Notes under the pieces: generated by a model
Told to the model about the DNA's origin: nothing
Seen by the model: the letters and a program-made list of their open reading frames with translations, nothing else
The model's database searches: none
In this document: positions 19,092 through 61,666 of the stretch, one piece after another
How positions within the stretch are numbered: position 1 is the stretch's first letter
Layout of the letters: each line of letters begins with the position of its first letter
Program-made: the position numbers and the translations under genes
Source: a virus
Length of the DNA: 64,000 nucleotides
Reading direction: 5' to 3' (one strand)
Virus record (IMG/VR): IMGVR_UViG_3300037502_003155
Coordinates: 1-64,000 of that record

Positions 19092-19114
19092 CCTACGCAT
19101 AGCTCCAACAACAA

Positions 19115-19146
19115 AACCCCCGGCACCACACGGCACCGGGGGTTTG
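19115..19146. terminator. Bidirectional terminator between convergent genes
   Basis: AACCCCCGG ... CCGGGGGTT hairpin with T-rich flanks on both strands, between a rightward and a leftward gene. Confidence 0.7.
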
Positions 19147-19148
19147 TG

Positions 19149-19301
19149 TTAGTCATCTTCCAGAGTCTCCCAAGACAGCTTCTCAGCGTAAGCTTTGACT
19201 TGGGCCACGATACGCTTTGGGACTCGCATCGTGGTGAGAAGTTCACCTGGGGGGTAGGGTGAGTGGCCTCGCCCACCCCGGCTGTAGTCGCGGCCCTTTA
19301 T
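19149..19301 (-). CDS. Small cyanobacterial-type protein (start uncertain)
   Basis: The frame reads KGRDYSRGGRGHSPYPPGE then MRVPKRIVAQVKAYAEKL, a pattern I associate with short cyanobacterial proteins of unknown function. No ATG/GTG/TTG precedes GRDYSR in frame; an ATA at 19301, four bases inside the Csx3-like stop region, or the internal ATG at 19226 are the only options. May be a truncated or atypically started gene. Confidence 0.4.
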   Translation of the reverse strand: MKGRDYSRGGRGHSPYPPGELLTTMRVPKRIVAQVKAYAEKLSWETLEDD

Positions 19302-19603
19302 GCGGGCACTTTTGGGATTTCTACCACAGTCCCCACGGGGGGGGCGGTGCGGCTGTGGCGGGAAGTGACGACAGCACCGCCTAGACGAGGGTCGAAGGTG
19401 CCGACCCATTGAGTGGTGTGGTAATGATGGGCAAGGGCGGCGTAGAGCCACACAGGCCCACGTCCAGAGATGACTACGCCTTTGGTGCCGTCCACGTCGG
19501 GCGGGTTGAGGGTAGCAAGGTCTGCGGGTTCGCAGACCCCGCCGGGGATCTCGAACTCAAGCAGGGTCGCCCCTGCGAAGGGAGTGGTAGTGAACTGAAT
19601 CAT
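19298..19603 (-). CDS. Csx3/Crn3-type ring nuclease-like protein
   Basis: Csx3 (Crn3) proteins degrade cyclic tetra-adenylate, the alarm messenger of type III CRISPR systems. The 101-aa protein carries the family blocks: EFEIPGGVCEPADL, DVDGTKGVVISGRGPVWLY near residues 36-54, LAHHYHTTQWVGTFDPRLGGAVV near 56-80, and SRHS. The His pair and DPRLG, known to matter in Csx3, are present. ATG at 19603 has AGGAGG four bases upstream. No cas gene or array lies nearby, so it may act as a phage anti-CRISPR (inference). The AAA domain often fused to cyanobacterial Csx3 is absent. Confidence 0.85.
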   Translation of the reverse strand: MIQFTTTPFAGATLLEFEIPGGVCEPADLATLNPPDVDGTKGVVISGRGPVWLYAALAHHYHTTQWVGTFDPRLGGAVVTSRHSRTAPPVGTVVEIPKVPA

Positions 19604-19665
19604 GCTGCCTCCTTGGGCTGGTTGGGTGTGCAGGGCTTTACCTGCGGGGCTTGAGAGCGGTGACA

Positions 19666-20133
19666 TTAACGACGCTTGACGGGCCGGGGCTTGCCACTGG
19701 GGAGCGACTTGAACTCAGCCCCGACCCATTGGCCGAGTTCGTCCAGCACCCACTGAGGGATCGGGATAGGTTCCCCTTTGTAGGCCGCTTTTGTGCGACC
19801 CAAGGCAGGGTTCCGGCGGCGGATAAATCCGCGCTCCAGAGTTTTTTGGGTTTTGTCCTCAATGACCGCGACCATTTTCGCGGGTACGCGAAAATCTTTG
19901 TAAACATTTTCGTCAATAGACCATCTTTTCATGTCAATAAACAACCCGTCTTTGATTACCCGGGTTTTTACTTGGTCTACTTCAACCAGATCGGTTTTTT
20001 TGCCGATCCGGATAAAAGTTTCCCAGTCCTCTCGACTAGGAACGACGGTGCCCTCAGCAAAGAACCATTCTGGGCCCCCATCCGAGGTTCCAGGCATAAA
20101 CCCCCGGTAATGTCTCAACGCATCAGTTGCCAT
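19666..20133 (-). CDS. Hypothetical protein, 155 aa
   Basis: Upstream neighbour of the Csx3-like gene in the same direction. Residues 20-110 alternate strands and helices (FAEGTVVPSREDWETFIRIGKKTDLVEVDQVKTRVIKDGLFIDMKRW); C-terminus basic (KPRPVKRR). No family recognised; possible co-functioning with Csx3 is only positional. Confidence 0.6.
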   Translation of the reverse strand: MATDALRHYRGFMPGTSDGGPEWFFAEGTVVPSREDWETFIRIGKKTDLVEVDQVKTRVIKDGLFIDMKRWSIDENVYKDFRVPAKMVAVIEDKTQKTLERGFIRRRNPALGRTKAAYKGEPIPIPQWVLDELGQWVGAEFKSLPSGKPRPVKRR

Positions 20134-20151
20134 AGTCTTATCGCCGCCCCT

Positions 20152-20211
20152 CTTTTCGGCGCACCCTGCCCACCATGCAGGTTTCTTGGGGATAGTGTTG
20201 GTGGAATGCAG
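20152..20211. repeat. Duplicated leader, copy A
   Basis: CTTTTCGGCG, CACCCTGCCCACCATGCAGG, then TTGGGGAT and TTGGTGGAATG in order. Nearly the same string occurs at 20725-20777. Each copy lies just upstream of a leftward gene, so it is a repeated 5' region. Confidence 0.75.
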
Positions 20212-20244
20212 GGCTTTACCTGCTGAGCTTGAGATCGAGTGTGG

Positions 20245-20718
20245 CTATTCGTCCAAGGCGTCCAAGGCGTCCAAGACAATGTTAAACATTGCCTCAAACC
20301 GATACCACTCGGGCTCGGTCGTTGATTCGAAAGAAACGACATCTCCCGAATCGGAATCGACAAACCTCAGCAGCCAGTCCATCCACTCTGGGATAACCTG
20401 CCCGTAAGCAGGGTATCCGTGAATGGGAGCAACGGGGACGGAAACCCCGAAGACGGATTTGATGTAGCGGCGGTAGAAGTCTGGCCGCACATCGCAATGC
20501 GGGCCGTCTCCACCTCCGTAGCTGCGAGCTATGCCGAGAGCGGCATAGCCTACAATCACCTCCATCTCGTCGATGGAGTCACACCCTTCGTACTGAAGGA
20601 TGTGAACTTCCTCCCATTGGGAGGTGGAAGGGTCTTCCATGTAAGAGCGTTCGGTGCGCTCTTCAGAGACCACGCTGAAATACTGGTCTTGGCTCAAACG
20701 ACTGTTGTACGCAGGCAT
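20245..20718 (-). CDS. Hypothetical protein, 157 aa
   Basis: Begins MPAYNSRLSQDQYFSVVSEERTERSYMED; ends with a Phe-rich helix and a short direct repeat LDALDALDE encoded by repeated TCCAAGGCG units (about 20248-20272). Acidic, soluble. Not recognised. Confidence 0.55.
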   Translation of the reverse strand: MPAYNSRLSQDQYFSVVSEERTERSYMEDPSTSQWEEVHILQYEGCDSIDEMEVIVGYAALGIARSYGGGDGPHCDVRPDFYRRYIKSVFGVSVPVAPIHGYPAYGQVIPEWMDWLLRFVDSDSGDVVSFESTTEPEWYRFEAMFNIVLDALDALDE

Positions 20719-20724
20719 AATCTT

Positions 20725-20777
20725 TTCGGCGTACCCTGCCCACCATGCAGGTTTACTTGGGGATTTAGTTGGTGGAA
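20725..20777. repeat. Duplicated leader, copy B
   Basis: Second copy of the 20152-20211 repeat, before the 20245-20718 gene. A related piece containing GCAGGGCTTTACCTGC (stem-loop) occurs near 19627 and again near 20209. Confidence 0.75.
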
Positions 20778-20868
20778 TGGGGCACCGTGCAACTGCTGCA
20801 CTTTTGGCCGCTTGCTAGGGTTGTCGTGGCTGCTCCACCGTGCCCGGTTGCAGTAGCGCCCCTCTCGT

Positions 20869-20953: not shown

Positions 20954-20965
20954 CATGAACATAAC

Positions 20966-20992
20966 TGTATACGGTTTGTTTAATGTTGTCAA
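20966..20992 (-). promoter_or_regulatory. Promoter upstream of tRNA-like sequence
   Basis: TTGACA (20992-20987), 15-bp spacer, TATACA (20971-20966), giving a start near 20958, five bases before the tRNA-like acceptor strand. The spacer is short for sigma-70. Confidence 0.45.
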
Positions 20993-20999
20993 CGCCTTT

Positions 21000-22751
21000 T
21001 TATAAATCCAGTAGCAGGTGCCCCACATCATTTGGAATCTGGTATCGTGCTGGGCTACCCCCATCGCTCACCACAAAGCCGTCATCGGTGGCCATGCGGT
21101 CGAGGGTGAAGGCTACCTGGTCAGTGGTCAGTTTTTTGAGAGCTGTGGATTGTTGCCGGATCTCTGAGGCCAGCATGGGGGCGTTGGCCTTGTGCTCCAG
21201 GATGGCAAGAATGAGTTGCTTAACCTCGCTCATGGTTTCGGGGGTTACGGCCACCGCAACCTCAGGGAAAGTCCCCAATGTGTTGAGCGTGGGAATCTCA
21301 AGCTCTGGCGTTTGCCCCACGAACAACCGTGACGCATGAACGGCAAACGTGCGGTTCACTGCTGACTGACGACGTAGGGCAGTGTGATAGGTTTGAGCCG
21401 ATTCGCGCTCAGACTTTGCGCGGATCAGTGCATCGTCCGTGAGCACGTTGTCGATGGTTTTGGCGTTGCCCTCCATGGGCTTGCCTTCGTGGTCTTTGGT
21501 CGTTTTGCAGCCCAAAGCTAGGGTGCAAATGTTGTCGCGCAATCCGCTGGATAACGTGTTTTTGCCAGGGGAAAAGCTGATGTCTCCGAGCAAATGGCTT
21601 TGGTTTACCAAAATCATGTGCATATTTAGCTCACGGCCCGCCACGATAAGATCAAGAAAAACGGTGGTGATTAGCTTTTGCTCATCCTTCTCAAGCCAAG
21701 CCAGCTTGCCTTTGGCTAACATCCACTCATCGAAGACAAACCAGAGATGTTTTCCCACGGGTTGCCCTTGATTCAGCCGTCCTTTGCGCTTCGTTAGCTC
21801 AGTATTGATCTGGTTAAACAATTTCAGGTAATCGTTATCCGACTGCATAAACCGAGCGGCGGGCTTAAGGTTTGCCCAGTCAGATCCTTTAGGGTCAGCA
21901 ATGGTGATAAGGTGCCCCTGGTTGGCCAGATGGGTACAGAGATTCCGCAGCACCCAGGTTTTTCCGCTACCTGTAGTAGCAGCGATCAGAATGTGTATTT
22001 GGCTAGCCAGGTAGGGAACAAAGGCTTGTGGCAATTCGGCGGGTTGCCAGCCAGTAGATTCAGCTTCCATCGGGGGCGCTACAGCCTCTATGTGTTCCCA
22101 CGGCTCCGTCACCATGTCAGGGGTGCCCTGGGGGGCTTCTATGGGCTGGGTCGGCTGGTCAGTTCCTTCAACAGCCGAGGATGATTCTTGAGGCGAGGAT
22201 GATTCTTGAGGCTTCTGAAGCCATTGGAACGGGCCTAGTTCAGTCGGCACGCCCTTAGGCTCAATCCCCCAATCCTCTAGCAGTTGCTCTAGCCGTTGAA
22301 TGGGCAGCATGACGTTAGTGGGGTCGCTAGGGTCAATCCAGCAATAGACCTCTCCATATTTGGCCAAGGGGTGCTTGTCCTTGGGGCTAAACTCAATCCA
22401 GCCTGTATGGCCGAGCATCCCTTCAATGGCTCGGTTGATGGCGGCTACGTCGTAGCGTTTTTTAAGTTGTGCGCGAAGATCGTTGATGCTGGGATGCTTT
22501 GGGGTAGAGGCGCTCAAGATTTCCTGCAATTCATCCCCCTCTTCCTTAGGGCGAAACTTTTTGATTTCGTCCAAAAAATAAGCCCCCATACCAACAACCG
22601 CCGCAACACTGGCAATGGGCAGTGTTGCGGCGGTTGTATATAAAACAACGATACCCCCACCCACAACGATTGCCCTTTCTAGCAGCCCGCCGCTAGCTGG
22701 TTTAATGAGCGCGGGCTGTTTCTTTTTCGGGCTGATGGTGGTCAGGGTCAT
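21000..22751 (-). CDS. FtsK/HerA-like DNA translocase ATPase
   Basis: A 583-aa P-loop ATPase. N-terminal hydrophobic segments (residues about 27-65) should anchor it in the membrane; Walker A ATTGSGKTWVLRN near residue 265, Walker B LWFVFDEWM near 345, and a C-terminal winged-helix-like region (LAILEHKANAPMLASEIRQQS). FtsK/HerA proteins pump DNA in segregation, conjugation or packaging. With the two membrane proteins encoded just upstream it may form a membrane complex. It is not a terminase by motif. Confidence 0.82.
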   Translation of the reverse strand: MTLTTISPKKKQPALIKPASGGLLERAIVVGGGIVVLYTTAATLPIASVAAVVGMGAYFLDEIKKFRPKEEGDELQEILSASTPKHPSINDLRAQLKKRYDVAAINRAIEGMLGHTGWIEFSPKDKHPLAKYGEVYCWIDPSDPTNVMLPIQRLEQLLEDWGIEPKGVPTELGPFQWLQKPQESSSPQESSSAVEGTDQPTQPIEAPQGTPDMVTEPWEHIEAVAPPMEAESTGWQPAELPQAFVPYLASQIHILIAATTGSGKTWVLRNLCTHLANQGHLITIADPKGSDWANLKPAARFMQSDNDYLKLFNQINTELTKRKGRLNQGQPVGKHLWFVFDEWMLAKGKLAWLEKDEQKLITTVFLDLIVAGRELNMHMILVNQSHLLGDISFSPGKNTLSSGLRDNICTLALGCKTTKDHEGKPMEGNAKTIDNVLTDDALIRAKSERESAQTYHTALRRQSAVNRTFAVHASRLFVGQTPELEIPTLNTLGTFPEVAVAVTPETMSEVKQLILAILEHKANAPMLASEIRQQSTALKKLTTDQVAFTLDRMATDDGFVVSDGGSPARYQIPNDVGHLLLDL

Positions 22752-26636: not shown

Positions 26637-27209
26637 CTAGTCTTCTAGCACTCTCTTAACCTTGCGGGCTACGTCAGAGCAAATGCCCTCACACTGATCG
26701 GCCCCCCAAGCCTGGGTATCTTCAATCGTTCGGCCCGACTTAATCTCTGCCAACGTTAGGGCGGCTAACTCCAGTTCATCAAGGCCGTCCCTAGTTGACT
26801 TTACCTTGCGCGATGCCTGAAGCTGCTTGGCTGTCTGCCCAAATAGCCCCACGTTCACCGCATTGGTGCATCGGGCATATTCATGGGGGTAAGCAACGCC
26901 GTGATTCTTGAGCGTGTCAGTAAGCTGGTATCGCGCCACCTTGCCGTCAAGGCGTGCCTTAATCTGCTTGTCTGACCAACCTAAGCGACTGTATTTGCGA
27001 ACGGCATGGTCAAGTGCTTTATCTGGGTCGGCAATGATGCCAGCAGCCCACCGCCGAAACTCAGCCCCACGCTTACCAGGGCACAGCATGAGGATTTGGT
27101 ACATCCCCTCTTCATTGGTAACGGGGGTTTCCCGTTGCCCACGACCGGGGAATTTGAAGTCCGAACAAAAGTCGCTAACCTCAGGATTCTGCTTTTCAAG
27201 TCGCTGCCG
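26637..27209 (-). pseudogene. BRO/antirepressor protein lacking its N-terminus
   Basis: The open frame begins abruptly after a TAG at 27212 and reads RQRLEKQNPEVSDFC, then FKFPGRGQRETPVTNEEGMYQIL, which is the middle of a BRO-N-like domain; the first half of the domain and the start codon are missing. The remainder (GAEFRRWAAGIIADPDKALDHAVRKY, then CTNAVNVGLFGQTAKQL...STRDGLDELELAALTLAE) is intact. An internal ATG at 27104 could give a fragment. The break coincides with the truncated end of the integrase. Confidence 0.75.
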
Positions 27210-28272
27210 CTACATGAGGGATGCTAGCCCCCTGCTCCAGCAGGTGACTGCCTAGGCTATGCCGTGCGGAGTAGGGCACTCGGTCAACGCCCGCCGCTTT
27301 GCAGATCCGTTTCCATGTGCGTTGGGAAAAATCGCAATCATTGATCGGGTTGCCCCGTGGGGTTAAAAATATCAAGTCGTCCGGCTTAGCCCCGGCGGGC
27401 CTCCGGGCGTTCAGCATCGCCACCATGTCAGCGTGCAGTGTCAGTGTCCTCACCTTGTTGGTCTTGGTGCCCTTTCTTTGCCGTGCCCAGCCAGCCGCCT
27501 TGCCATCGGGGGCTCGGGCGAGGGCTTCAGCAATGGTTGCCACACCGCGCTCTAGGTCAATGTGTCGCCACCTCAAGCCCGCTGCCTCGCTAACTCGCAG
27601 CCCCAAGTAGAACAGGGTCATTACAAAATCATGGTAGGGCTCGGTGCAGGGATCAGCCTTGGTGGCATCCAAGAAAGCCCGGATCTGCCCAGCAGTTAGC
27701 GGTGCCCGTTTTGGGTTGGGTTGGCGGCTGGCTTTGATGCGTGGCACGTCTGTCCACGGGTTGGACTCTAAGTGCCCCCGCTGCATGGCCCATTGACCAA
27801 AACTTCGCAGCCTCGATAGATTCTGGTTCGCCACAATGCCCGACTGAGAGGCCCGTAGGCGTTCGAGAAAGGCCGCTGCCTCTTTGGTGGTCACAATGTC
27901 CTTTCCCCATCGCTGTAGATGCCCTAGCAGTGGCTTATAGCTAGCGGTAATGGTTTGGCCGCTGGTGCCGTCCTCCCTGCGATGCTCGATAAATTGCTCG
28001 AACAGATCGGCGGTGGTTAGCCGGGGTGGCTCTGGCTCCGGCTCTGGCTGGGGTTTGTATTTGGCTAGCGTTGGGTCAAACTGCTCACGGGCAATATCAG
28101 CCTGAATCTCGGTGGCTAGTATCTCGGCACGATGGCGGTTGAGGGGGCTATCGGGTAGGCCAATGGCAAGCTGATACGGTCGCCCCTGGTGTGTCCACCT
28201 CAGGCGTAGCATTTCATTTCGCGTTGACACTGACACTGCCCCCCGTTTGTTACGGCGGTTTTTCCTGGGCAT
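27196..28272 (-). pseudogene. Tyrosine recombinase truncated before the catalytic tyrosine
   Basis: 358 aa: basic N-terminus, SAM-like core-binding domain (LFEQFIEHRREDGTSGQTITASYKPLLGHLQRWG), and catalytic domain with LGLRVSEAAGLRW (first Arg), TKTNKVRTL (Lys) and SARHSLGSHLLEQGASIPHVAA (H-x-x-R-type box). The expected LGH...Y tail is absent: after HVAAAT the frame stops, so the nucleophile is missing. The following DNA belongs to the antirepressor frame. Likely inactive unless the missing end is restored by recombination. Confidence 0.82.
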
Positions 28273-28320
28273 GGTGGTTCATCTGCGTTCCTTCTCTGGT
28301 GTTCAGATCCTACCAAGGCA

Positions 28321-28925
28321 CCAGTCAGTAATTTACTGACTAACTGACAAAAGCCCAAAACCATTGAAGCGCAAAGGGTTTGGAGTTCTGTCAGCAACCC
28401 CAGTCAGTGAACTGTCAGCACCAGTCAGTAGAGCACTGACCAATAGAAATCCTTACGCAGCAAGGCTTTGAGGGGGACGAGTCAGTAAGTCAGTGAAATC
28501 CTTATATAGATATTTAAAATATCCCCCCCTAAAAGATCCCAAAAACTCTAATAGTTTTTGGCTCAACATCTCAATTTTTACTGACTTGCTGACTGGGATA
28601 CCTCAAACCCTTATATATCAAGGGTTTGCATTAGTCAGTGGCCTACTGACTTGTACTGACTGGCCTGCTGACAAATCCCCATACAAAATCTAGAAAGCTA
28701 TATACATCAATACTTTTAAGGATTATTCTATTCACTGACACTTACTGACTGGTCTACTGACAAATCCCCCTTTACTTCTCATTCCCATCACCATCAATAA
28801 ATAAATGGTTATCAGATCTATATACCTATAGCTATAGAAGGGCGTTGTATACGGTACACAATAAGGATTGATAGTGATGCCTCTGGTCAATGAGTTGGAC
28901 AGGGATTCACTGACTGACTGCCACG
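28321..28925. repeat. CAGTCAGT / TTATATATC repeat island 1
   Basis: About 600 bp of AT-rich non-coding DNA between the integrase and the RNR, packed with CAGTCAGT/CTGACTGA tetramers, stem-loops such as AACCCTTATATATCAAGGGTT (28606-28627), and a 36-bp block (28487-28522) identical to one in island 2 (47409-47444). A final CACTGACTGACTG lies at 28908-28920. No ORF is convincing here. Confidence 0.88.
28845..28861. promoter_or_regulatory. TTGTATAC-N-GTACACAA palindrome, copy 1
   Basis: TTGTATACGGTACACAA, an 8-1-8 inverted repeat with one mismatch, preceded by CTATATACCTATAGCTATAG. Upstream of the RNR gene; related copies lie at 47778 and 55398. Confidence 0.7.
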
Positions 28926-28974: not shown

Positions 28975-31341
28975 ATGGTTGTGAGTCAACAAAGACAAAT
29001 TGACTTTCCCGCTAGCGCCCCCGTGGCGTATCCGCTGTTCTACCGCACCTATAGCCGCGTCACCGACGAGGGCCAACGCGAATCCTGGGAACAGGTCTGC
29101 CGCCGCACTGTGGCGGGACTCAAAGAACTGGGGGCGCTGAATGACGACGAAACCGCACTGCTGGCCCGGATGCAGCGCCAGGTTGTTGCCTTGCCCTCCG
29201 GTCGGTGGCTATGGGTCGGCGGAACTGACTGGAGCAAGAAACCTGAGAACTTTTCGGGTAGCTATAACTGCACAAGCACGAACGTACTAGACTGGCGTGC
29301 CTTTGGCTTGATGATGGATTTGGCCATGCAAGGCTGTGGCACCGGGGCCGTGCTTGAAGATCGGTATATCAGCCAGTTGCCCGTGATTCGCAATCGGCTG
29401 AACGTGGTGGTTGATGGGGAGATTGGTAGCGCCCGACCTGAGGAAAAGCACGATAGTACGGTATTGGCCATCAATGGCAATCGCGTCATCATCCAGGTGG
29501 GCGATAGTCGCCAAGGATGGGCAGAGTCTTATCAGAAGTTGCTAGAGCTATCCAGTGCAGGGCGCTTTGATGGCCCTGTTGATGTGGTTGTTGACCTGTC
29601 CTCTGTACGCCCTTCCGGGGCACGTCTGCGGGGCTTCGGGGGCATTGCTAATCCAGTTAAGCTGCCGGGGCTCTATGGCCGTTGTGCGGCGATTCTGAAT
29701 AAGGCCATTGGACGAAAACTCAATGCCGTAGAATGCTGCCTTCTGATTGATGAGGCGGCGTCAGTAGTGGTGGCGGGCAATGTCCGAAGATCAGCGGGGA
29801 TGCGTCAATTTGACAGCACCGACGCCCTTGCCGCCACCGCCAAAGACGACCTTTGGCAACAAGACGCCGAGGGCAACTGGCGGATCGACCCAGAACGCGA
29901 TGCCTTGCGGATGGCCAACCATACCCGTGTGTTCCACCAAAAGCCTAGCCTGGAGGACTGCACTGCCGCCGTGCAGAAGCAGTTTTACTCTGGCGAGGGT
30001 GCGATTCAATGGGCGGGTGAGGCCGTCGCCCGCTCCAATGCGGATCTGCTCAACACCCCTGAAAAGAAACGGGAATTTATTGCCCAGTATGTTGAGGGCA
30101 AGGGCGCGGAATATTTAGGGGCATTGATGGCCGATGGCCCTAGCTTTGAAAGTGAGTTACAACACCGATTGCAGCGCTATGCCCTGAATCCATGTGGTGA
30201 GATAATCTCCGCAGATTTCTTTTGTAACCTTTCTGAGGTGCATCTGAATCAACTCAATCCGCACGATTTCGAGGCTCAAAACGACGCCTTCACAGCAGCG
30301 GGGTTATCGGTGGCTGTGTTGTTAAACCACCAATTTGTTGAGCCACGTTATAAACAAGCCCGTGAATTTGACCCCATCGTAGGGGTATCCTTTACCGGGC
30401 TATTCGACTTCTTTGTGAATGCCTTTGGCGTAGACTGGCTGCGCTGGTGGGAGGCGGGACGGCCTAGCAACTGGAGCAGCTTGGGAGAGGATGCCGTATG
30501 GATTCCCCTTGGTGAAAAATTCAGCCAGGCCAACGCCGAATTTATGGCCCAAAGCGAATACTTCAGGTTGCGTGAACAGGAATACCTCACCCGCTGGGGC
30601 AACATCGCTCACCAAGCCGTGTGGGACTACTGCGACCGCCACGGCCTAAAGCGCCCCAACCGTTGCACCACCGTGCAGCCTGCGGGATCTAAGTCCCTGC
30701 TAACCGGGGCATCCCCAGGCTGGCATCCTCCCAAGGCACAGCGCTTTATCCGGCGCGTCACCTTCCGCAAGGGCGACCCCGTGGCCCTGGCCTGCATCGA
30801 CTATGGCTATACCGTGGTGCCCTCGCAGTCCGACAAAGACGATGACGGCAACCTACTCAACGATCCCTTCGACCCCCGTTGTACCGAGTGGCTGGTAGAG
30901 ATTCCGGTAGAGGTGCCCTGGGCTAACCTGCCGGGTGCCGATGCCATCCACATCGAGCGATTCAGTGTGGCGGCACAGTTTGATTTCTACATGCAGGTGC
31001 AGAAGCACTATGCGACCCATAACGTTTCTAGTACCTTGGAAATGCGCGAGGGCGAAATTGAGGAACTAGCTGAGCTAATCCACAACGCCATCGAAAACGA
31101 CGAGGGCTATATTTCAGCGGCCCTCCTAGCCCGCTTCGATGACCTCCAGACGTTTCCCCGATTGCCCTTTGAGCCCATCGACAAGGCCACCTATGATACG
31201 CTGTCAGCGGCGGTGCTAGAACGGCGGGCGACTGATGATTTCCACCAAGCTTTGGCCCGGTACGATGCCGGAGAATTAGTCGAGGCTGGCCCCGCTGGTT
31301 GCGACTCGGATAAGTGCATGATGCCGGAGAAAAAGCGCTAA
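28975..31341 (+). CDS. nrdJ: Adenosylcobalamin-dependent ribonucleotide reductase, class II monomeric type
   Basis: Reduces ribonucleoside triphosphates (or diphosphates) to deoxyribonucleotides using B12. The 788-aa protein resembles the monomeric Lactobacillus-type enzyme: SYNCTSTNV near residue 99 (redox cysteine), LNPCGEI near 403 with the N-x-C-x-E active-site motif, TVQPAGSKSLLTGASPGWHPP near 562, and a C-terminal pair of cysteines (CDSDKCMM) as the reductant exchange pair. No intein is visible. The start follows the CCAACCCCAACCA leader. It supplies dNTPs with the dCTP deaminase. Confidence 0.94.
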   Translation: MVVSQQRQIDFPASAPVAYPLFYRTYSRVTDEGQRESWEQVCRRTVAGLKELGALNDDETALLARMQRQVVALPSGRWLWVGGTDWSKKPENFSGSYNCTSTNVLDWRAFGLMMDLAMQGCGTGAVLEDRYISQLPVIRNRLNVVVDGEIGSARPEEKHDSTVLAINGNRVIIQVGDSRQGWAESYQKLLELSSAGRFDGPVDVVVDLSSVRPSGARLRGFGGIANPVKLPGLYGRCAAILNKAIGRKLNAVECCLLIDEAASVVVAGNVRRSAGMRQFDSTDALAATAKDDLWQQDAEGNWRIDPERDALRMANHTRVFHQKPSLEDCTAAVQKQFYSGEGAIQWAGEAVARSNADLLNTPEKKREFIAQYVEGKGAEYLGALMADGPSFESELQHRLQRYALNPCGEIISADFFCNLSEVHLNQLNPHDFEAQNDAFTAAGLSVAVLLNHQFVEPRYKQAREFDPIVGVSFTGLFDFFVNAFGVDWLRWWEAGRPSNWSSLGEDAVWIPLGEKFSQANAEFMAQSEYFRLREQEYLTRWGNIAHQAVWDYCDRHGLKRPNRCTTVQPAGSKSLLTGASPGWHPPKAQRFIRRVTFRKGDPVALACIDYGYTVVPSQSDKDDDGNLLNDPFDPRCTEWLVEIPVEVPWANLPGADAIHIERFSVAAQFDFYMQVQKHYATHNVSSTLEMREGEIEELAELIHNAIENDEGYISAALLARFDDLQTFPRLPFEPIDKATYDTLSAAVLERRATDDFHQALARYDAGELVEAGPAGCDSDKCMMPEKKR

Positions 31342-43858: not shown

Positions 43859-44521
43859 TTAAGCCTCCATATTCAAAACTTCCACCAACACCCGATCCGG
43901 GTCACAGGTCAGCGACAGCACCTTAGCCACCGCTGCACACTCACAGCCCGCCAACCTCACATAGACCACATCATCCCCCCGCCGTGCCAACAAATGGGCG
44001 GTGACTGGCCCTAGCGGTTCCTCTGTGGTCACAATGGCTTGGCCGTACTGCACCCTTACCCTTAGCGCACGGTCGTATAGGTCGGGGCTACACTTTGCGG
44101 TGGCCCCCTTGCCCACATCAGGAAACACCTGGATCGAGTTGGGGCCAGTGCCCAGCGTGGCCTCGGTCGCCTGAACCTGTTGCCCATCTACGCTCTTAGG
44201 CAGGGAGTAGGCCACAATCGTTGCGCTGGTCAGGTCTGCCGCTTCTAGGGTATAGCCCGTGCCCGATGGCCGTAGGGTGAGCAACCCAGGCCCACCCACG
44301 GCTTCAAACATCCCCACAAAGGGCATTCCCGATACCTCCCACCGTCGCCCCTTCAGCAGCGCATCCCGTTCAGGGCATGGGTTAAGCTCTACCGTCAGCA
44401 CATGGCCCGCCAACTTGGTTTTGCTGGGCTTGGCATAGACGGGCACCGCTAACCCCTGGAGGTCGCCTATGGGGTCAACCTCCAGCCATGTACGGTAGAT
44501 GTGGGTTAGGGAGGGGAGCAT
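43859..44521 (-). CDS. Tail-region protein, 220 aa
   Basis: Beta-rich (IGDLQGLAVPVYAKPSKTKLAGHVLTVELNPCPERDALLKGRRWEVSG). Overlaps the upstream gene at one base. No family recognised; small tail or tail-terminator protein by position. Confidence 0.6.
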   Translation of the reverse strand: MLPSLTHIYRTWLEVDPIGDLQGLAVPVYAKPSKTKLAGHVLTVELNPCPERDALLKGRRWEVSGMPFVGMFEAVGGPGLLTLRPSGTGYTLEAADLTSATIVAYSLPKSVDGQQVQATEATLGTGPNSIQVFPDVGKGATAKCSPDLYDRALRVRVQYGQAIVTTEEPLGPVTAHLLARRGDDVVYVRLAGCECAAVAKVLSLTCDPDRVLVEVLNMEA

Positions 44522-45210
44522 TACTCACCCTGAGCCGTCCGAATCGCATCCATCGTTTGAGGATGGGTAAACGATCCGCTGGTGGTATTGACAGCCGTAG
44601 GCGATGCCGCGCCATCAAAGAACGAAATCCCGGTAGCCTGTACGGTAAACTTCCGGTTGGCATCAATGTCGGGGGCAATGGTCAACTGCGCCAACTTGCG
44701 TACCTTGCCACTCCCACTAGCGGCGGTCGTCGTCGTTCGAGAAATGGCATTCGATACTGCACTGCCATTTGACAAAGACAAGCAGGTAACGGTACAGGTA
44801 AACGCGCCCGTCGTGCCAGGGGTAACACCCGTCACAACCACGGTATTTTCTACGCCTGTTCCACCCTGTACCGCCATTACGTCAGGGTGTAGGTTAATCA
44901 ATTCAGCCAGGGCAGCCGCTACATCATCTTCGGTCGGGGTCTCGCTGGAATCAAAGAACCAGGAAAAAACCCGCGCCGCCCCCGTGGGGCCATCAATGCT
45001 CACCTGGTAATGGGCATCAGCCACGGGCAGGTTAGCCTGAGAAACGGTGATGGTCTCTACCTGTGGTTCGCTGGTCGCATCCAAATTTACCCAGTGCTCT
45101 ACCCGTACATTGGCACCCCCGGCAATGGGCACCACACGGGCTTCGACCTCCAACGACACCGAGGACGTGGACGTGGTAATAGCGGTATAGGTTAAGTCAG
45201 CAATACTCAT
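44521..45210 (-). CDS. Putative tail tube-like protein, 229 aa
   Basis: Thr/Ser/Val-rich beta protein with the unit HYQVSIDG...AALAELINLHPDVMAV...TVVVTGVTPGT, also seen in the 52293-53144 decoration-like protein (SISVVGG...AGLLAAIQASDL...VITLRALTPN). This unit is common in tail tube and sheath proteins. C-terminus ends with a long Thr stretch. Confidence 0.55.
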   Translation of the reverse strand: MSIADLTYTAITTSTSSVSLEVEARVVPIAGGANVRVEHWVNLDATSEPQVETITVSQANLPVADAHYQVSIDGPTGAARVFSWFFDSSETPTEDDVAAALAELINLHPDVMAVQGGTGVENTVVVTGVTPGTTGAFTCTVTCLSLSNGSAVSNAISRTTTTAASGSGKVRKLAQLTIAPDIDANRKFTVQATGISFFDGAASPTAVNTTSGSFTHPQTMDAIRTAQGE

Positions 45211-52292: not shown

Positions 52293-53144
52293 CTAGTTCA
52301 AGAACAGCGCAACCTTCACGACAAAGCCCCCGTTCGGGTCGGCTGTCGCAGGTTCAACGATTTTCACACCCGTAGGTAGGGCGAGGTTGCTGGTGCTGGT
52401 GGCCGTCACAACGCCTAGGGTGGTGTTGCAATCGATGTAGGCCGTAGTGGTCGGCAGGATGCTGCCAGAATCACACTTCACCCACACCCCACCACCGGGG
52501 GCGGTGCGGTCGATGACGTCCATCACATCGTTAGCGGCGTACTGGGCAGCCGCCGTATTGCCAACAGCGCCCCGCTCAATGGCATGGGTCGGGGCGATGG
52601 CCACCCCAGCCACCGTCACGTTGCTGGCAGTAGCAGGCAGTCGGGCTTCGTTGAACGAATCCACGGTGCCAGAGGTAGAGCGAACCACGAAACGCCCAAA
52701 AGGCACCGCAGTTGAACCCGATGCCGCCACCGTTTGAGTGAGGGTGAGGTCATTAGTCGTGGTGGCATTGGTCGGGCTAGTGACCGTGTAGCCCACGTTG
52801 GGTGTCAACGCCCGCAACGTGATGACGTTGGACGCTTCACTGACGGCAAAGTATTGGCTAAGGTCGCTAGCCTGAATCGCCGCCAGAAGGCCCGCCGTTA
52901 GCTCGGCGCGGGTTGCACTGCCATCGGTGGTAAACGAAGCCACGATGGCCGCAGGGATAGCCCCACCGACGACCGAGATCGAGTAGGTGCCGCTATTGTC
53001 TACCGTGGCTGGGGTGGTGACCGTCCAAGTGTTCTGGGCATCCAGGGCAGAGTTAATCATGGCGCGTACGCCCATATCCCCTAGGCCATCGACTTGACCG
53101 GGGAACGCCTTAGCGCTGGTTTGGCTGTAGTTGGTTTGTGACAT
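52293..53144 (-). CDS. Capsid decoration/cement-like protein, 283 aa
   Basis: Thr/Ala/Val-rich beta protein directly upstream of the capsid gene. It has the G-x-x...AGLLAAIQ...VITLRALTPNVGYTVTS repeat unit and a DUF2190-like Ala-rich domain pattern. Fits a cement or minor capsid protein. Confidence 0.65.
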   Translation of the reverse strand: MSQTNYSQTSAKAFPGQVDGLGDMGVRAMINSALDAQNTWTVTTPATVDNSGTYSISVVGGAIPAAIVASFTTDGSATRAELTAGLLAAIQASDLSQYFAVSEASNVITLRALTPNVGYTVTSPTNATTTNDLTLTQTVAASGSTAVPFGRFVVRSTSGTVDSFNEARLPATASNVTVAGVAIAPTHAIERGAVGNTAAAQYAANDVMDVIDRTAPGGGVWVKCDSGSILPTTTAYIDCNTTLGVVTATSTSNLALPTGVKIVEPATADPNGGFVVKVALFLN

Positions 53145-53192: not shown

Positions 53193-54107
53193 CTAGCGAC
53201 GTTTGCCGTAGTTGTCTTTGTTGGCCGTCAACGGGGTAGCAAAATTGTTCATCCGCCGTTCCCGATCTGCCGCACCCGCATCCATGGCACGGCCACTGGT
53301 AGCGGTGCCCAGCACGAGGCTCAACTCATCGGCATAGCCAGAGTCAGAACGACGGCTAGGGGCGCTGTGTTGGCCCATGGCGTCGTCAACAATGGCGTCG
53401 TAGAGGGCTTGGATGTAGGGATCGCTGGCATCGTCCCGGTACAGGTTGGGGCGCTTTTGCTCGACCACAAAGCGGCGAATGTCGGCAGCATCGTCGATGG
53501 CATCCATCCGCAGATCGGAGAAGTCAACGCCAATGGCCTCAGCTTCGCGAATAACTTTGACCATTTCGACAGCATCAGACCGGACAGAATCCTTCTTAGA
53601 TTTCATGTCCTTTTTGGTCTTCTTAGACTTGGCGGGGGCGGGCATCTCGTCCTCGTCCTCGTCCATATACTCTTCGTCTTCGTAGTCTTCGTCCTCGTAG
53701 TCTTCCATATCATCCATGTCTTCGACGTATTCCTCGTCTTCCTCCATGTCCTCTAGGAAGGCAGGCATCTTGCCTTTTTTCTTGCCCTTGCCATCTAGGC
53801 GCACATAGCTATCGCCACGCCATGCAATGTCGGCATCCTCTAGCAACGATTCGGCCTGGTCTAGGCGGTCACGCAGGGCTTCGATCATGCCGTCCTTGTA
53901 CTGAACTTGCCCTTGAACATCGCCTAGGGCCGATTCGGCGCTATCAGCGCGATCCTCAGCCTCTTCTAGCTCAGCCTCAAGACTGTTGACGGCAGAGTCA
54001 TTGCGGGCCAGTAGGGGAGAGATGGTGTTGAAAACATCTTGGGGCACCTGAACGGAGCCACCAGGAAGATTCAAAGTTGCCAAAGGCATATATCCGTTGG
54101 TACTCAT
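53193..54107 (-). CDS. Internal-start scaffold product of the DUF2213 gene
   Basis: In-frame ATG at 54107 with AGAGGA six bases upstream, better than the TTG start of the full gene. Product begins MSTNGYMPLATLNLPGGSVQVPQDVFN and contains the coiled coil (residues about 45-105) and acidic region, the composition of a scaffolding protein. Resembles the lambda C/Nu3 nested protease-scaffold arrangement. Confidence 0.6.
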   Translation of the reverse strand: MSTNGYMPLATLNLPGGSVQVPQDVFNTISPLLARNDSAVNSLEAELEEAEDRADSAESALGDVQGQVQYKDGMIEALRDRLDQAESLLEDADIAWRGDSYVRLDGKGKKKGKMPAFLEDMEEDEEYVEDMDDMEDYEDEDYEDEEYMDEDEDEMPAPAKSKKTKKDMKSKKDSVRSDAVEMVKVIREAEAIGVDFSDLRMDAIDDAADIRRFVVEQKRPNLYRDDASDPYIQALYDAIVDDAMGQHSAPSRRSDSGYADELSLVLGTATSGRAMDAGAADRERRMNNFATPLTANKDNYGKRR

Positions 54108-54755
54108 GGTTTCCTCTTGGGTAAACAGATTGGAGTATGGTGGCTCCTGTGCTTTAACCTGATAAGCCAGGTCGTTTTCTTCCAAATCAGCGCTATCAAA
54201 GCGACCTAACACCTTCACCGAGGGGCCTGCTCGACCCATCCGAGTAAGGGCAATGTGGTTTACCTTGATGTCTCGCTGAATGGCGTCGTAGCGTTCGCTT
54301 TGGCCTGTGGCAGGGTTAAACCACACCCCAGAGGTTTCCTCGATTCGGCACTTATAGCCCGCGCTAATTTCGGAGGCATCCCCGCGATGCACCGCATCCT
54401 GGGCATCGCGGCTCATCACCGCAATTTGCCCCGTTACAAAACCACCCTTCCCAGGCACAACGACGTACCGAGGGGTTTGCAACGAAATGCCCTTTCGCAG
54501 CCGATCACCGTTCGACTCATCGACTAACCCCGTGGGATGTTCGAGGGTTAGCGAGGCTAAGCCAAATTCGGCAATGGACTTTTGGTTCTCCTCAGGGGGC
54601 CGAAATTCGCGCCGTGTTTTGCCGCCCGGAGCTTTATACTCCAGTACCCCATCCCGGGCAAAGATGGCATCACACAACAAAATCCCGTCATCAGTACGAT
54701 GCGGGTTCAGAACTTGGCCGCTATCAAATCGAATCGCCAAAGGAACACTAGCCAA
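53193..54755 (-). CDS. DUF2213-type protein with nested scaffold-like C-terminus
   Basis: TTG start at 54755, 520 aa. N-terminal 190 residues have the DUF2213 pattern (TDDGILLCDAIFARDGVLEY..., LTLEHPTGLVDESNGDRLRKGIS, DASEISAGYKCRIEETSGVWFNP...), a family in the protease/maturation position of many phages. Then a coiled coil, a very acidic stretch (DEDYEDEEYMDEDEDE) and a basic one. See the internal start entry. Nucleophile not identified by eye. Confidence 0.72.
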   Translation of the reverse strand: MASVPLAIRFDSGQVLNPHRTDDGILLCDAIFARDGVLEYKAPGGKTRREFRPPEENQKSIAEFGLASLTLEHPTGLVDESNGDRLRKGISLQTPRYVVVPGKGGFVTGQIAVMSRDAQDAVHRGDASEISAGYKCRIEETSGVWFNPATGQSERYDAIQRDIKVNHIALTRMGRAGPSVKVLGRFDSADLEENDLAYQVKAQEPPYSNLFTQEETMSTNGYMPLATLNLPGGSVQVPQDVFNTISPLLARNDSAVNSLEAELEEAEDRADSAESALGDVQGQVQYKDGMIEALRDRLDQAESLLEDADIAWRGDSYVRLDGKGKKKGKMPAFLEDMEEDEEYVEDMDDMEDYEDEDYEDEEYMDEDEDEMPAPAKSKKTKKDMKSKKDSVRSDAVEMVKVIREAEAIGVDFSDLRMDAIDDAADIRRFVVEQKRPNLYRDDASDPYIQALYDAIVDDAMGQHSAPSRRSDSGYADELSLVLGTATSGRAMDAGAADRERRMNNFATPLTANKDNYGKRR

Positions 54756-56542: not shown

Positions 56543-58291
56543 TCAAAGGTATGGCCAAAGGCACCGGTAGCCTTGGAGGGAGGAGTCGGTGCGGTTGGGT
56601 TTCTTTTGTTGGCGCTTGAAATGCTGTAGTTGAGTAAATAGCGAGTTGCCCCAAAAGCTTCCTTCGCCGCCTAATATTTTGTCCGCCGCAGCAATTCGCG
56701 CCATCACCGTCCCCTTCCCTACCTGAAGGTTTGTGGCGATCTGCTGAGCGCTAAGACCTTGTGCTGTCAGTCCTAGTACGTCTTTGTTGAGAATGTCTTT
56801 GGCAAACTCTTTTAATTCGCCAACCTGCTTATCTGTAAAAGGAAAAGCATTCTCTTTCACCCTCGCCTTCTGCCCCTTAGCCTCTTTCACCGCCCGCTTA
56901 AGCTCAGCCCTAGCCTTAGACTTTTCAACGGTGCGATCCAAAGCGGCTCTAGGGGTTTGCCTAGCTTTCTCTGGGCTGCATTGCTTCCCCCTAGGAATCC
57001 AGCCATTTCCACACGCTACCCCTTGCCCCCGTTGGTCAAAGCGGTTGTGCATCACATCTAGGTAGCCTTGAAGGAAGGCATCAGCACGGGTATTCTTCGC
57101 TTCCTGGGCCTTCCATAGTTGATCCATAATCCAGTTGTAAGGCCGTTCCCCGTTGGCGTCCTCTGTGCCAATGGTCTGCATTGTCTTAAGGGTCTTTCTT
57201 AACTCTGGATGCGAAGCCGCTAACAACGTCCGTTCTCTGCGTTCAAGCTCATCCCTAGAATATCCGTCTGAGGCTTGGTCAAGTTCAGCTTCAGGATCCC
57301 ATTTGGTGTATTTGTTGAACGCTTTGCGTGCATCAGGGTTAGCCGCAACTTGCTTTAAGTCGTCCCGTGCATCGTCATACCCTGCCAATTCCTTAGGAGA
57401 GTATTCAAACAACTCCATCACTTCATCAAAGTCGCCTGAGTCAATGCCCTTCAACTGTTGAGCGAGATCCTTAGCCTTAGGAAAAGCTTCAACCTGGCTC
57501 AAGTCGCCGCTTTCTATGGCAACCCTCAGCACTTCTTTGGCCGCATAGGGGTCATCGCCAAATGCCGCATATTGATCGGCTAGCCGTAGCGCATTCTGGG
57601 TCTTAGCTAGGTCTTTCTTGACACTAGCAGCGGACGTTTCCGTTGCTAGCTCTAATACTTCCTCTGGCTCATCCAACTGCATCAGATCAGACAGAAATGC
57701 CTGGGTATCCTCAGTGGGGGTATAGGGGTAATCCCGCTCATCTGGTTCCTGCCCTGCCCCCGTTGATTCCCATTGCTCTAGGTCTTTTTCGTAGCGCTCA
57801 TAGTTAGGATCGGCCAAGACCTTTTTAACGTCGGCTTTTGCTAGTGTCTCCCCAGGATTATTCACCCGGCACACATAGGCTTGGCTGATATGACTACCGC
57901 CACACTTTTGCCCCCGTGCTGCCTCCCCCTGGTCAAACCGCCATACCCCATGTTGGTTCAACGCTTCCAGGATAGTTTCAAACTCAATGACTCCCCCCTG
58001 CTGGTAGCGCTTGCGAATATCCCGCAGCAGTGCCGATAGCTCAGGGCGCATATCCGCCGATTCTTCCGCCGCCTCATGGAGGTGCCCTATCGCCAATAGC
58101 TTGTGCTCTGGGTAACCTGCCTCAGCTTCCCCCATTAGCACCAGGGCAGCGCCAAGGTGTTTCTCCACGCACTCCATGCAGGATGGCCGTACCGAGTCCA
58201 TCCGCATCGTATCGGCATACCCCCACACAAACTCCGGGGGCGTATCCAGTGGCAACCCATATCGGGACGCAAGCACAACAGTAGACGGCAT
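56543..58291 (-). CDS. Multi-module head protein with CX10C modules (copies 4 and 5)
   Basis: ATG at 58291 is chosen (58 bp from the 17-bp element). About 582 aa. N-terminus MPSTVVLASRYGLPLDTPPEFVWGYADTMRMD is a degenerate module, followed by SCMECVEKHLGAALVLMGEAEAGYPEHKLLAIGHLHEAAEES, a domain known near MuF genes. RGQKCGGSHISQAYVC is one CX10C copy; near residue 443 a full copy follows: DAFLQGYLDVMHNRFDQRGQG then VACGNGWIPRGKQCS. The C-terminal HTH-like segment (LTAQGLSAQQIATNLQVGKGTVMARIAAADK) suggests DNA binding. Confidence 0.65.
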   Translation of the reverse strand: MPSTVVLASRYGLPLDTPPEFVWGYADTMRMDSVRPSCMECVEKHLGAALVLMGEAEAGYPEHKLLAIGHLHEAAEESADMRPELSALLRDIRKRYQQGGVIEFETILEALNQHGVWRFDQGEAARGQKCGGSHISQAYVCRVNNPGETLAKADVKKVLADPNYERYEKDLEQWESTGAGQEPDERDYPYTPTEDTQAFLSDLMQLDEPEEVLELATETSAASVKKDLAKTQNALRLADQYAAFGDDPYAAKEVLRVAIESGDLSQVEAFPKAKDLAQQLKGIDSGDFDEVMELFEYSPKELAGYDDARDDLKQVAANPDARKAFNKYTKWDPEAELDQASDGYSRDELERRERTLLAASHPELRKTLKTMQTIGTEDANGERPYNWIMDQLWKAQEAKNTRADAFLQGYLDVMHNRFDQRGQGVACGNGWIPRGKQCSPEKARQTPRAALDRTVEKSKARAELKRAVKEAKGQKARVKENAFPFTDKQVGELKEFAKDILNKDVLGLTAQGLSAQQIATNLQVGKGTVMARIAAADKILGGEGSFWGNSLFTQLQHFKRQQKKPNRTDSSLQGYRCLWPYL

Positions 58292-58348
58292 GGGACATTC
58301 CGCGAAACTGTCACCAGTCTGCCAAGGGTGCGGGGGCATGGCTTAGCG

Positions 58349-59564: not shown

Positions 59565-59947
59565 GGGCGCGTCACCTTCATACTTAATCCATCCTGATAC
59601 CCCTGCAAAAATGCGCTATCAGGCCGATACCGTTCCTTTTGGCGGTTGGCCCTAGCCAATATCCCTTGCACATCCTTGTAGTTTTTAGGCACCTTCTCAC
59701 CCCATCTGCGAAACTGCATGGCGGCGGGTGTGGGCATTCCCTTGTCATCCACCAACGGATCTTTACGGCTGAGGATCTGCGCGGCCTTTCGACTGTTGAA
59801 CTTAGCCCGATCCCACTTATCGCCATCACTGGCCCCTGTGGCCTTCCGCACGGGCTTACGCACCGCACCGCTGCCCTCGTTATACTGGGCCATCTTGCGA
59901 TTGGTGCGACGGTCGTAGGCGGCGTAATGTTCGGCTAGGGTGGTCAT
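59561..59947 (-). CDS. Small head protein ending in a partial shared module
   Basis: 128 aa between portal and MuF genes. Basic, then ends RPDSAFLQGYQDGLSMKV, a truncated version of the module's FLQGYxDGMRxD half without the CX10C half. Role unknown. Confidence 0.6.
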   Translation of the reverse strand: MTTLAEHYAAYDRRTNRKMAQYNEGSGAVRKPVRKATGASDGDKWDRAKFNSRKAAQILSRKDPLVDDKGMPTPAAMQFRRWGEKVPKNYKDVQGILARANRQKERYRPDSAFLQGYQDGLSMKVTRP

Positions 59948-61608
59948 TGTGTTAGCTCCTGATACCGTCTATCCCGCCACGCCACTGCATAGCGGCTAGG
60001 CCAAATCACAAACCTCTGCTGGGCTTCCTGGGTAGCGATGGCGAGGGCATCCAACCGCACCGAGTCACCCCTTGCTCCCTCCAATACCTCAAGGCTCATA
60101 TCCTCTTCTTCGGGGGGCAGTGCCTCATCAACAAACTCCCCATCATCCACGGGGGCATCCTCAAAGCCCTCTTCGGGAATCCCCTCATCCATCGGCATCT
60201 CCCCTTCCATGCCCCCGGCCTGTTGTTGAGCCGCCTGGAATGCCTCATCATCCAGCGTCGTTTCAAAGCTGAACGATGCCCCTCCAAAGCGCGATTTCCG
60301 TACCTCTTCGGGCACCAATACCCCCGCCTGAAGGTAAACGCTATCGGTCTGGGCTTGGCTGCTACGATTGGCAATCTTTTCAGCTTCGGTCTGCTCTAGC
60401 AGTGGGTTGAATGCAATACTCCATCCCTCCAGTGGCTTGCCCCCGGTGGGGCCGTCCTTGGCTAAGAACATCAACTGATAGATTCGGTTCAGCGCTGCCA
60501 AGGGCCACCCCTCTTGGTAGGCTCCCACCTTCTTAGCCCAAGTCTTTTCCTCACTTTCCCCAGTTGCCCCAAGGCCGCTAGGCGACTCGCCAAAGAGGAT
60601 GGTGTGGGGAATCCCCAGGGCACCGATCAGCATATCCCGGTAGCTGCTAATCAGGTCGTTCAGCCCTGAGAACTGGCGAGACACAAAGTTAACCGATTCC
60701 TCATCCTTATCCAGCACCACCCCGCCCATCATCGAGGCCATCATTTGGAGTGAGGTAATGCGCTGACGAATCGCGGCTTCATTGCCTTCGGTCATCATGT
60801 CGCCAAAGCCCGCCACCTGGTAGACGAACAGGCTATAGTCTTTCACCAGATGCTCAACCCCCCTGGTCATCGACTCCCAAGCCGAGAACTGATCCCAGAC
60901 CACCTCTAGCAATGACCGATCCCATCCGTTGTTGTAGCGCATCACTTGCGGGGGCACGGGTATCCCCGGCACACGAATCACGCGACTGCGGTGGATAGGA
61001 TAGCTTTGGCTATACCCTTGCCCAGAGAATCGCCCTTGAAACATACTGACCAAGCCAGGATGCCAATCAGGGGTAATTTGCAGATGGTAATGAGTGGTCT
61101 TCAGTGGGTTAGCAATGGCGGTTTGACCGGGGTAAAGCTGAAAGCTGTCGAGGACTTCAATCTCGCGGATCGTCTTGATGTTGGCTGTATCGATGGGTTC
61201 ATGGGGCGGTCTGCCATCGTCCACGTTCAGCACAATCGCGGCACCTCGATACACATTGGCTAGATACCCTGCCCATCGAATAATTTCTCGGTCACTCGAT
61301 AGAGGTTGGTCTCTCAGGTCAGAATCCTTTGTGCGCGTACCCACCACGTTACGGTACACCTCAAAGGCCGTCTTTACCTTGTCGCTCACCCCTTCCGGCC
61401 ATGAGATTTCCCAGCCCTTAGCCGTGGCGGCATCAGGGTAAGCGGTACACGCCACATTTAGGGGCCACACCTGACACAGTTGGTCTAACTGCCCCTGCCC
61501 TAGGCGATGAACAGCTCCGACCTGGGTATACAGGGTGCTATCTGAGGCTGTCCCTAGCCCCGTCAGGGCATTGATGAGAACCCCGTCATTGCGGATTACG
61601 TCAGACAT
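59944..61608 (-). CDS. Portal protein (DUF1073-type)
   Basis: ATG at 61608 is preferred over 61620 (59 bp from the 17-bp element). About 554 aa. Family features: LDQLCQVWPLNVACTAYPDAATAKGWEI, VVWDQFSAWESMTRGVEHLVKDYSL, GLNDLISSYRDMLIGALGIPHTILFGESPSGLGATGESEEKTWAKKV, all DUF1073-type portal patterns. Acidic C-terminal tail, then RGDSVRLDALAIATQEAQQRF. A leader hairpin (AGCCCC...GGGGCT nesting ACCCCT...AGGGGT) precedes the start. Confidence 0.88.
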   Translation of the reverse strand: MSDVIRNDGVLINALTGLGTASDSTLYTQVGAVHRLGQGQLDQLCQVWPLNVACTAYPDAATAKGWEISWPEGVSDKVKTAFEVYRNVVGTRTKDSDLRDQPLSSDREIIRWAGYLANVYRGAAIVLNVDDGRPPHEPIDTANIKTIREIEVLDSFQLYPGQTAIANPLKTTHYHLQITPDWHPGLVSMFQGRFSGQGYSQSYPIHRSRVIRVPGIPVPPQVMRYNNGWDRSLLEVVWDQFSAWESMTRGVEHLVKDYSLFVYQVAGFGDMMTEGNEAAIRQRITSLQMMASMMGGVVLDKDEESVNFVSRQFSGLNDLISSYRDMLIGALGIPHTILFGESPSGLGATGESEEKTWAKKVGAYQEGWPLAALNRIYQLMFLAKDGPTGGKPLEGWSIAFNPLLEQTEAEKIANRSSQAQTDSVYLQAGVLVPEEVRKSRFGGASFSFETTLDDEAFQAAQQQAGGMEGEMPMDEGIPEEGFEDAPVDDGEFVDEALPPEEEDMSLEVLEGARGDSVRLDALAIATQEAQQRFVIWPSRYAVAWRDRRYQELTQ

Positions 61609-61666
61609 AGCCCCTGCCAAACAGAACCCCTCTACCGTGCAGGATAAAGGGGTCTGCGGGGGCTAG

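Follow-up and report, generated by a model that had tools for sequence, protein, structure and literature searches.

A phage-borne Csx3/Crn3 ring nuclease as a probable type III anti-CRISPR

The 64,000-nt stretch of viral DNA analysed here (the window, part of a 76,925-base IMG/VR record) carries on its minus strand, at 19298-19603, a gene for a stand-alone protein of 101 aa, csx3 (crn3). Csx3 is a bacterial enzyme that destroys the CRISPR alarm molecule cyclic tetra-adenylate (cA4), and the assignment of the phage protein to this ring nuclease family draws on family search, residues and predicted fold. It matches the Pfam family Cas_csx3 (PF09620) with an E-value of 6.5e-27 (93.6 bits, curated cut-off 21), the PADLOC Csx3 model with 1e-27 and Archaeoglobus fulgidus Csx3 with 7.7e-19 (phmmer). 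These scores are far beyond chance, and the protein is a bona fide Csx3/Crn3. The original prediction had read a Csx3 core from two motifs, both of which lie in this ORF, and Pfam, PADLOC and phmmer agree with it. It had also called the ribosome site excellent, and the sequence AAGGAGG is indeed found at 19608-19614 (minus strand), four bases 5' of the csx3 ATG. An in-frame ATG at 19666, which overlaps the stop of the preceding gene (TAATG), would lengthen the ORF; homologues place the start at the 19603 ATG and not at 19666.

The protein stops after the Csx3 domain and lacks a C-terminal AAA/kinase-like domain. Since a Pfam scan also found no adjoining Csx3-AAA-type ATPase, and assigned the neighbouring genes to no family, the predicted absence of an AAA partner holds. 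Membership of the AcrIII-1 family (DUF1874) is ruled out, as the sole Pfam match is Cas_csx3 and the fold is that of Csx3. Family, fold, length, catalytic residues and stand-alone form are all shared with Csx3/Crn3 of A. fulgidus (AF1864) and with cellular stand-alone Csx3, but the phage copy sits in a genome without cas10, away from any type III CRISPR locus. Such a neighbourhood is the usual context of Csx3 and is no part of the definition of the protein family.

A cassette of three minus-strand genes, placed between the recombination module and the integrase, ends with csx3. The first (20245-20718, 157 aa) and the second, immediately upstream of csx3 (19666-20133, 155 aa), are without known family, and no relative of either was found in IMG/VR. 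Related leaders precede all three genes: that of csx3 (19604-19665) is homologous to the copies before the 155-aa gene (20134-20244) and the 157-aa gene (20719-20790), all on the minus strand. Because the leader is repeated ahead of three consecutive genes, the arrangement suggests a cassette exchange region. A structured RNA was considered for the repeated leaders and rejected, as folding energy gave no signal. Upstream of the cassette lies a promoter-like site, TTGACA-17-TACAGT (20964-20992, minus strand; a match to the consensus only), and 3' of csx3 a strong intrinsic-terminator-like hairpin (19114-19145, minus strand; z -6.0). The two neighbours could not be identified as known anti-defence genes, being without family and relatives; they are candidates for further genes of this kind. 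A 583-aa HerA/TrwB-like ATPase, unusual for a phage, is encoded upstream of the cassette (21000-22751, minus strand), with weak Pfam matches and no plasmid match.

The placement of csx3 in a phage accessory region, as originally predicted, is borne out by the genes found on the same record. These include a large terminase (66352-67722 of the record), a portal protein (59944-61620, minus strand), a head maturation protease (53193-54755, minus strand), a major head (capsid) protein, a neck protein, RecT, SSB, RusA, a primase-helicase and a long tape-measure-like ORF. A tyrosine integrase (27196-28272, minus strand), whose best cyanobacterial relatives are 45-52% identical, points to a temperate life style. 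Direct repeats of the TCAGTA/ACTGAC type at 28318-28769, just upstream of the integrase, are possibly its arm-binding sites or an attachment region. The portal is closest to cyanophage proteins (Aphanizomenon phage CL131, Synechococcus phage S-CBS4 and Planktothrix phage PaV-LD), the terminase to those of Cylindrospermopsis and Nodularia phages, and the first part of a class II ribonucleotide reductase gene (nrdJ; 28975-31341, plus strand) has 75-79% DNA identity to cyanobacterial nrdJ. Given these cyanophage and cyanobacterial affinities of portal, terminase, integrase and nrdJ, the record is most likely a tailed, temperate cyanophage. No Cas10 was found by Cmr2 and Csm1 models anywhere in its 76,925 bases, which agrees with the claim of no cas neighbours and rules out a phage-encoded type III system. 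Among the matches listed (the first 25 of 140 families), the strong PADLOC matches of the record's ORFs were DNA methyltransferases and Csx3 only. The phage Csx3 is thus virus-encoded and outside any CRISPR locus.

All residues known to matter for catalysis are retained. In alignment, phage H59, H62, D71, R73 and H83 correspond to H57, H60, D69, R71 and H80 of the A. fulgidus protein (AfCsx3), in which cA4 cleavage depends on H60, D69, R71 and H80, with H57 a likely metal ligand, and in which the active site is built by two dimers and uses Mn2+ (PMC7371418). The five residues are invariant or near-invariant across 53 homologues, and all five are present in the eight other phage and prophage Csx3 of that alignment. 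An AlphaFold2 model made from the homologue alignment has a mean pLDDT of 95.1 and superposes on Csx3 with bound cA4 (6yud) at a TM-score of about 0.87 and an rmsd of 1.1 A (Foldseek); a search of the BFVD viral structure library found no Csx3-like protein. AfCsx3 entered the literature as an RNA deadenylase (PMC7371418), and the functionally related Csx15 is largely a sponge (PMC13148439), so one might ask whether the phage protein is mainly a deadenylase or a cA4 binder rather than an efficient ring nuclease. We regard this as very unlikely, as every catalytic residue is kept, the likely metal-binding histidines included, and AfCsx3 binds cA4 about 100-fold tighter than RNA (PMC7371418).

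Csx3 is not confined to this phage. Alignment-based scans of IMG/VR recovered ten contigs with Csx3, two of which (L007 and L015) apparently represent the same phage, leaving nine distinct; as the scans used few motifs, this count of viral Crn3 is a lower bound. A single-sequence search of IMG/VR had found no relatives of the phage protein, and among 50,697 GenBank phages (INPHARED) there was no match to the window Csx3 or to a Csx3 from Pyramidobacter used as queries. The window phage and six of the other Csx3 contigs also encode a terminase (one terminase family searched), and the contigs include genomes as large as 167 and 273 kb. The Pyramidobacter gene is annotated as crn3 (NZ_CP133039.1; L005:6603-6887) on an 18-kb 'plasmid' that resembles a phage early region, with a LexA-type repressor, DUF2800, DUF2815, DNA polymerase and holin, and its product has close relatives in two IMG/VR contigs (L010 and L011). 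In a cyanobacterial chromosome contig (G256:C78, about 72-123 kb; L104, L119, L120), a prophage has a stand-alone Csx3 with 46% identity to the window protein among its tail genes; the genes on both sides of the prophage are those of the host and include recN and a rimP/nusA pair (names read from the sequences). Neither Cmr2 nor Csm1 models matched in any of 12 Csx3-bearing virus or element records; in cellular genomes with Csx3, a Cmr2 match was present in 26 of 33 (15 above the curated cut-off).

Many cyanobacteria have Csx3 (86/390 genomes), and the phage gene might therefore be a recent acquisition from a host CRISPR locus, functionless, or even a mis-assembled host fragment. In the second of our trees, the cyanobacterial cellular Csx3, stand-alone and AAA-fused alike, form one supported clade (100/96) with no viral sequence inside it, and two divergent cyanobacterial Csx3 fall outside. 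The window Csx3 lies outside this clade in the best trees, although joining it to the clade is not rejected by the AU test (p 0.109). The same test is borderline for all viral Csx3 as a single clade (p 0.051). We make no claim on the origin of the phage gene, since these tests allow both arrangements. A truncated host Csx3-AAA as its source was considered and set aside: the best trees disagree with it, though the AU test would permit adjacency. The Csx3-AAA (Csx3') of cyanobacteria has the same ring-nuclease domain and belongs to the phylum of the phage's hosts; the phage protein differs from it in having no C-terminal AAA/kinase-like domain and in falling outside the Csx3-AAA clade in the best trees. 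Acquisition without function, or mis-assembly, is scarcely credible, as terminase, portal and capsid are on the same contig and the GC content of the locus (0.586 at 18-20 kb), though towards the top of the range, differs little from that of the rest of the window. Moreover, at 30-60% identity to relatives the protein still has every active-site residue in place, which would not be so under neutral drift.

A record of encounters between this phage and type III systems was sought in the CRISPR arrays of cyanobacteria, by DNA searches of 370 genomes with 40 kb of the phage. Three plus-strand protospacers were retained, against a chance identity of 72% or less (reversed spacers, Markov shuffles, other phages). 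Two match spacers of a single array (G307:C196), one at 58068-58106 (35/39, 90%) and the other at 45143-45183 (35/41, 85%). The third, at 52306-52340, is matched perfectly (35/35) by a spacer in another genome (G293:C5), from the array of a type I-D locus (Cas5d/Csc1, Cas3d, Cas6d, Cas4d, Cas1, Cas2d). Two further spacers of the first array, at 76% and 72%, were too near the null to count, and a stretch in a third genome (G205; 92% over 37 nt) was dropped, being outside any array. The two genomes with retained spacers have the closest nrdJ among those sampled.

The 5' handle of a crRNA is usually the 3' GAAAC end of the repeat, and type III RNA targeting requires a crRNA antisense to the target mRNA. 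With the GAAAC end taken as the handle, each of the three crRNAs runs antisense to the minus-strand phage gene that it matches (that for 58068-58106 to the gene at 56543-58339, that for 45143-45183 to the gene at 44521-45210), and the adjoining 8 bases on the handle's side of the three protospacers show no match to it. The G307 array, of 149 repeats, adjoins a type III-D locus that encodes three Cas7, Cas5, Csx19, Cas10 with an intact GGDD, Csx3-AAA, a WYL regulator and Cas1. The locus also encodes a CARF-PDDEXK protein related to DUF1887/Can2 structures, and Can2 is activated by cA4 (PMC7969007). Taken together, the spacer matches, the III-D locus and the antisense crRNAs indicate that cyanobacteria with cA4-type III machinery have met the window phage or close relatives. 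G307 is a candidate host; as its two spacers hold 4 and 6 mismatches, they may record a relative of the phage. The sole perfect spacer is that of the type I-D locus, a DNA-targeting system that Csx3 is not expected to stop. Because the phage is evidently targeted by this system too, it may carry another anti-CRISPR.

The idea that the virus uses the gene to counter cA4 signalling by type III systems thus gains independent support from genome comparison, because cyanobacterial arrays, one of them beside a III-D locus, hold antisense spacers to the phage, and because Csx3 recurs in other phages without Cas10. We propose that the product of csx3 is a ring nuclease of the Csx3/Crn3 family, carried by the phage as an anti-CRISPR against type III systems, and put the probability of this reading at roughly 0.77. 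In the proposed mechanism, the host type III complex would detect phage mRNA, upon which Cas10 would make cA4 and so activate Can2 or similar CARF nucleases. Dimers of the phage Csx3 would then act in pairs, holding one cA4 between them in a common active site, with H59/H62 on one face, D71/R73 on the other and H83 in a pinning role. Mn2+-dependent cleavage of cA4 to linear A2-P would then turn the effector off. That the phage protein is catalytically active, acts specifically on cA4, is made during infection and protects the phage is our inference.

Several observations count against the anti-CRISPR reading. It has been argued that the two-dimer mechanism of Csx3 suits a host regulator rather than an Acr, and cellular Csx3 relieves Csx1 immunity in E. 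coli only partly, less than AcrIII-1 does (PMC7371418). The cyanobacterium that harbours the Csx3 prophage (G256) shows no Cmr2 or Csm1 match, and the one perfect spacer belongs, as noted, to type I-D. The phage encodes an integrase, its csx3 cassette has its own promoter-like site and terminator and sits between recombination module and integrase, and a related Csx3 is found in the integrated cyanobacterial prophage. These features would also fit a lysogeny accessory gene (moron), with which a prophage damps cA4 when the host's own type III system reads prophage transcripts, thereby keeping the lysogen alive instead of rescuing an infecting phage. The enzyme would be identical, and only the selective benefit would differ. 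We consider a moron of this kind improbable, though it is the foremost of the alternatives, as several of the Csx3 virus contigs are large genomes (167 and 273 kb) in which lysogeny is at most putative, and as the missing Cmr2 and Csm1 matches of the prophage host speak against it as well.

With the enzymes AcrIII-1 (phage Crn2, DUF1874) and AcrIII-2 (viral SAVED), viruses overcome type III CRISPR by degrading cA4. The proposed logic of an anti-CRISPR phage Csx3 is the same, but the folds are unrelated, and Csx3 depends on Mn2+ and builds each active site from two dimers, whereas AcrIII-1 is metal-independent. Csx16, Csx20 and Crn4b, also CRISPR ring nuclease families, are encoded in a few phage genomes and differ in family from Csx3. 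Viral ring nucleases have so far been of these other folds, AcrIII-1 and AcrIII-2, or rare Csx16, Csx20 and Crn4 homologues. A survey of 28,114 phages reported AcrIII-1 (36), Csx20 (4) and Csx16 (2), with Crn3 not named among the phage hits (PMC12409355), and we found no report of viral Crn3 in the open-licence literature. The enzyme family described here is known, and what is new is its viral setting. It seems likely that Crn3 is a recurrent and so far unreported class of viral anti-CRISPR. Its carriers are several phages unrelated to one another, among them cyanophages, a 273-kb jumbo-phage contig and Pyramidobacter-type elements, and one copy is fused to a NUDIX-like domain; viruses, too, would thus make use of a cooperative two-dimer ring nuclease that has hitherto been assigned to regulation by the host. 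Phage Crn3 makes the argument for a host off-switch (PMC7371418) directly testable, through the kinetics of phage versus host Crn3. The G307 III-D locus, with its Cas10, its Can2-type effector, its own Csx3-AAA and its spacers to a Csx3-bearing phage, offers a matched natural system.

Some of the other viral copies show additional features. In one IMG/VR contig (IMGVR_UViG_3300018719_000003; L007:9431-10312), Csx3 is fused at its N-terminus to a domain that weakly matches NUDIX (E 0.006); in the near-identical contig (L015) a frameshift shortens the Csx3 part, which may be an assembly error. Two ORFs with a P-loop-like GxPKAGKS motif and no clear family in one Pfam scan (L008:10319-10954, minus strand, and L009:6753-6979, plus strand) directly adjoin phage Csx3, and recall the AAA partner of the cyanobacterial Csx3-AAA.
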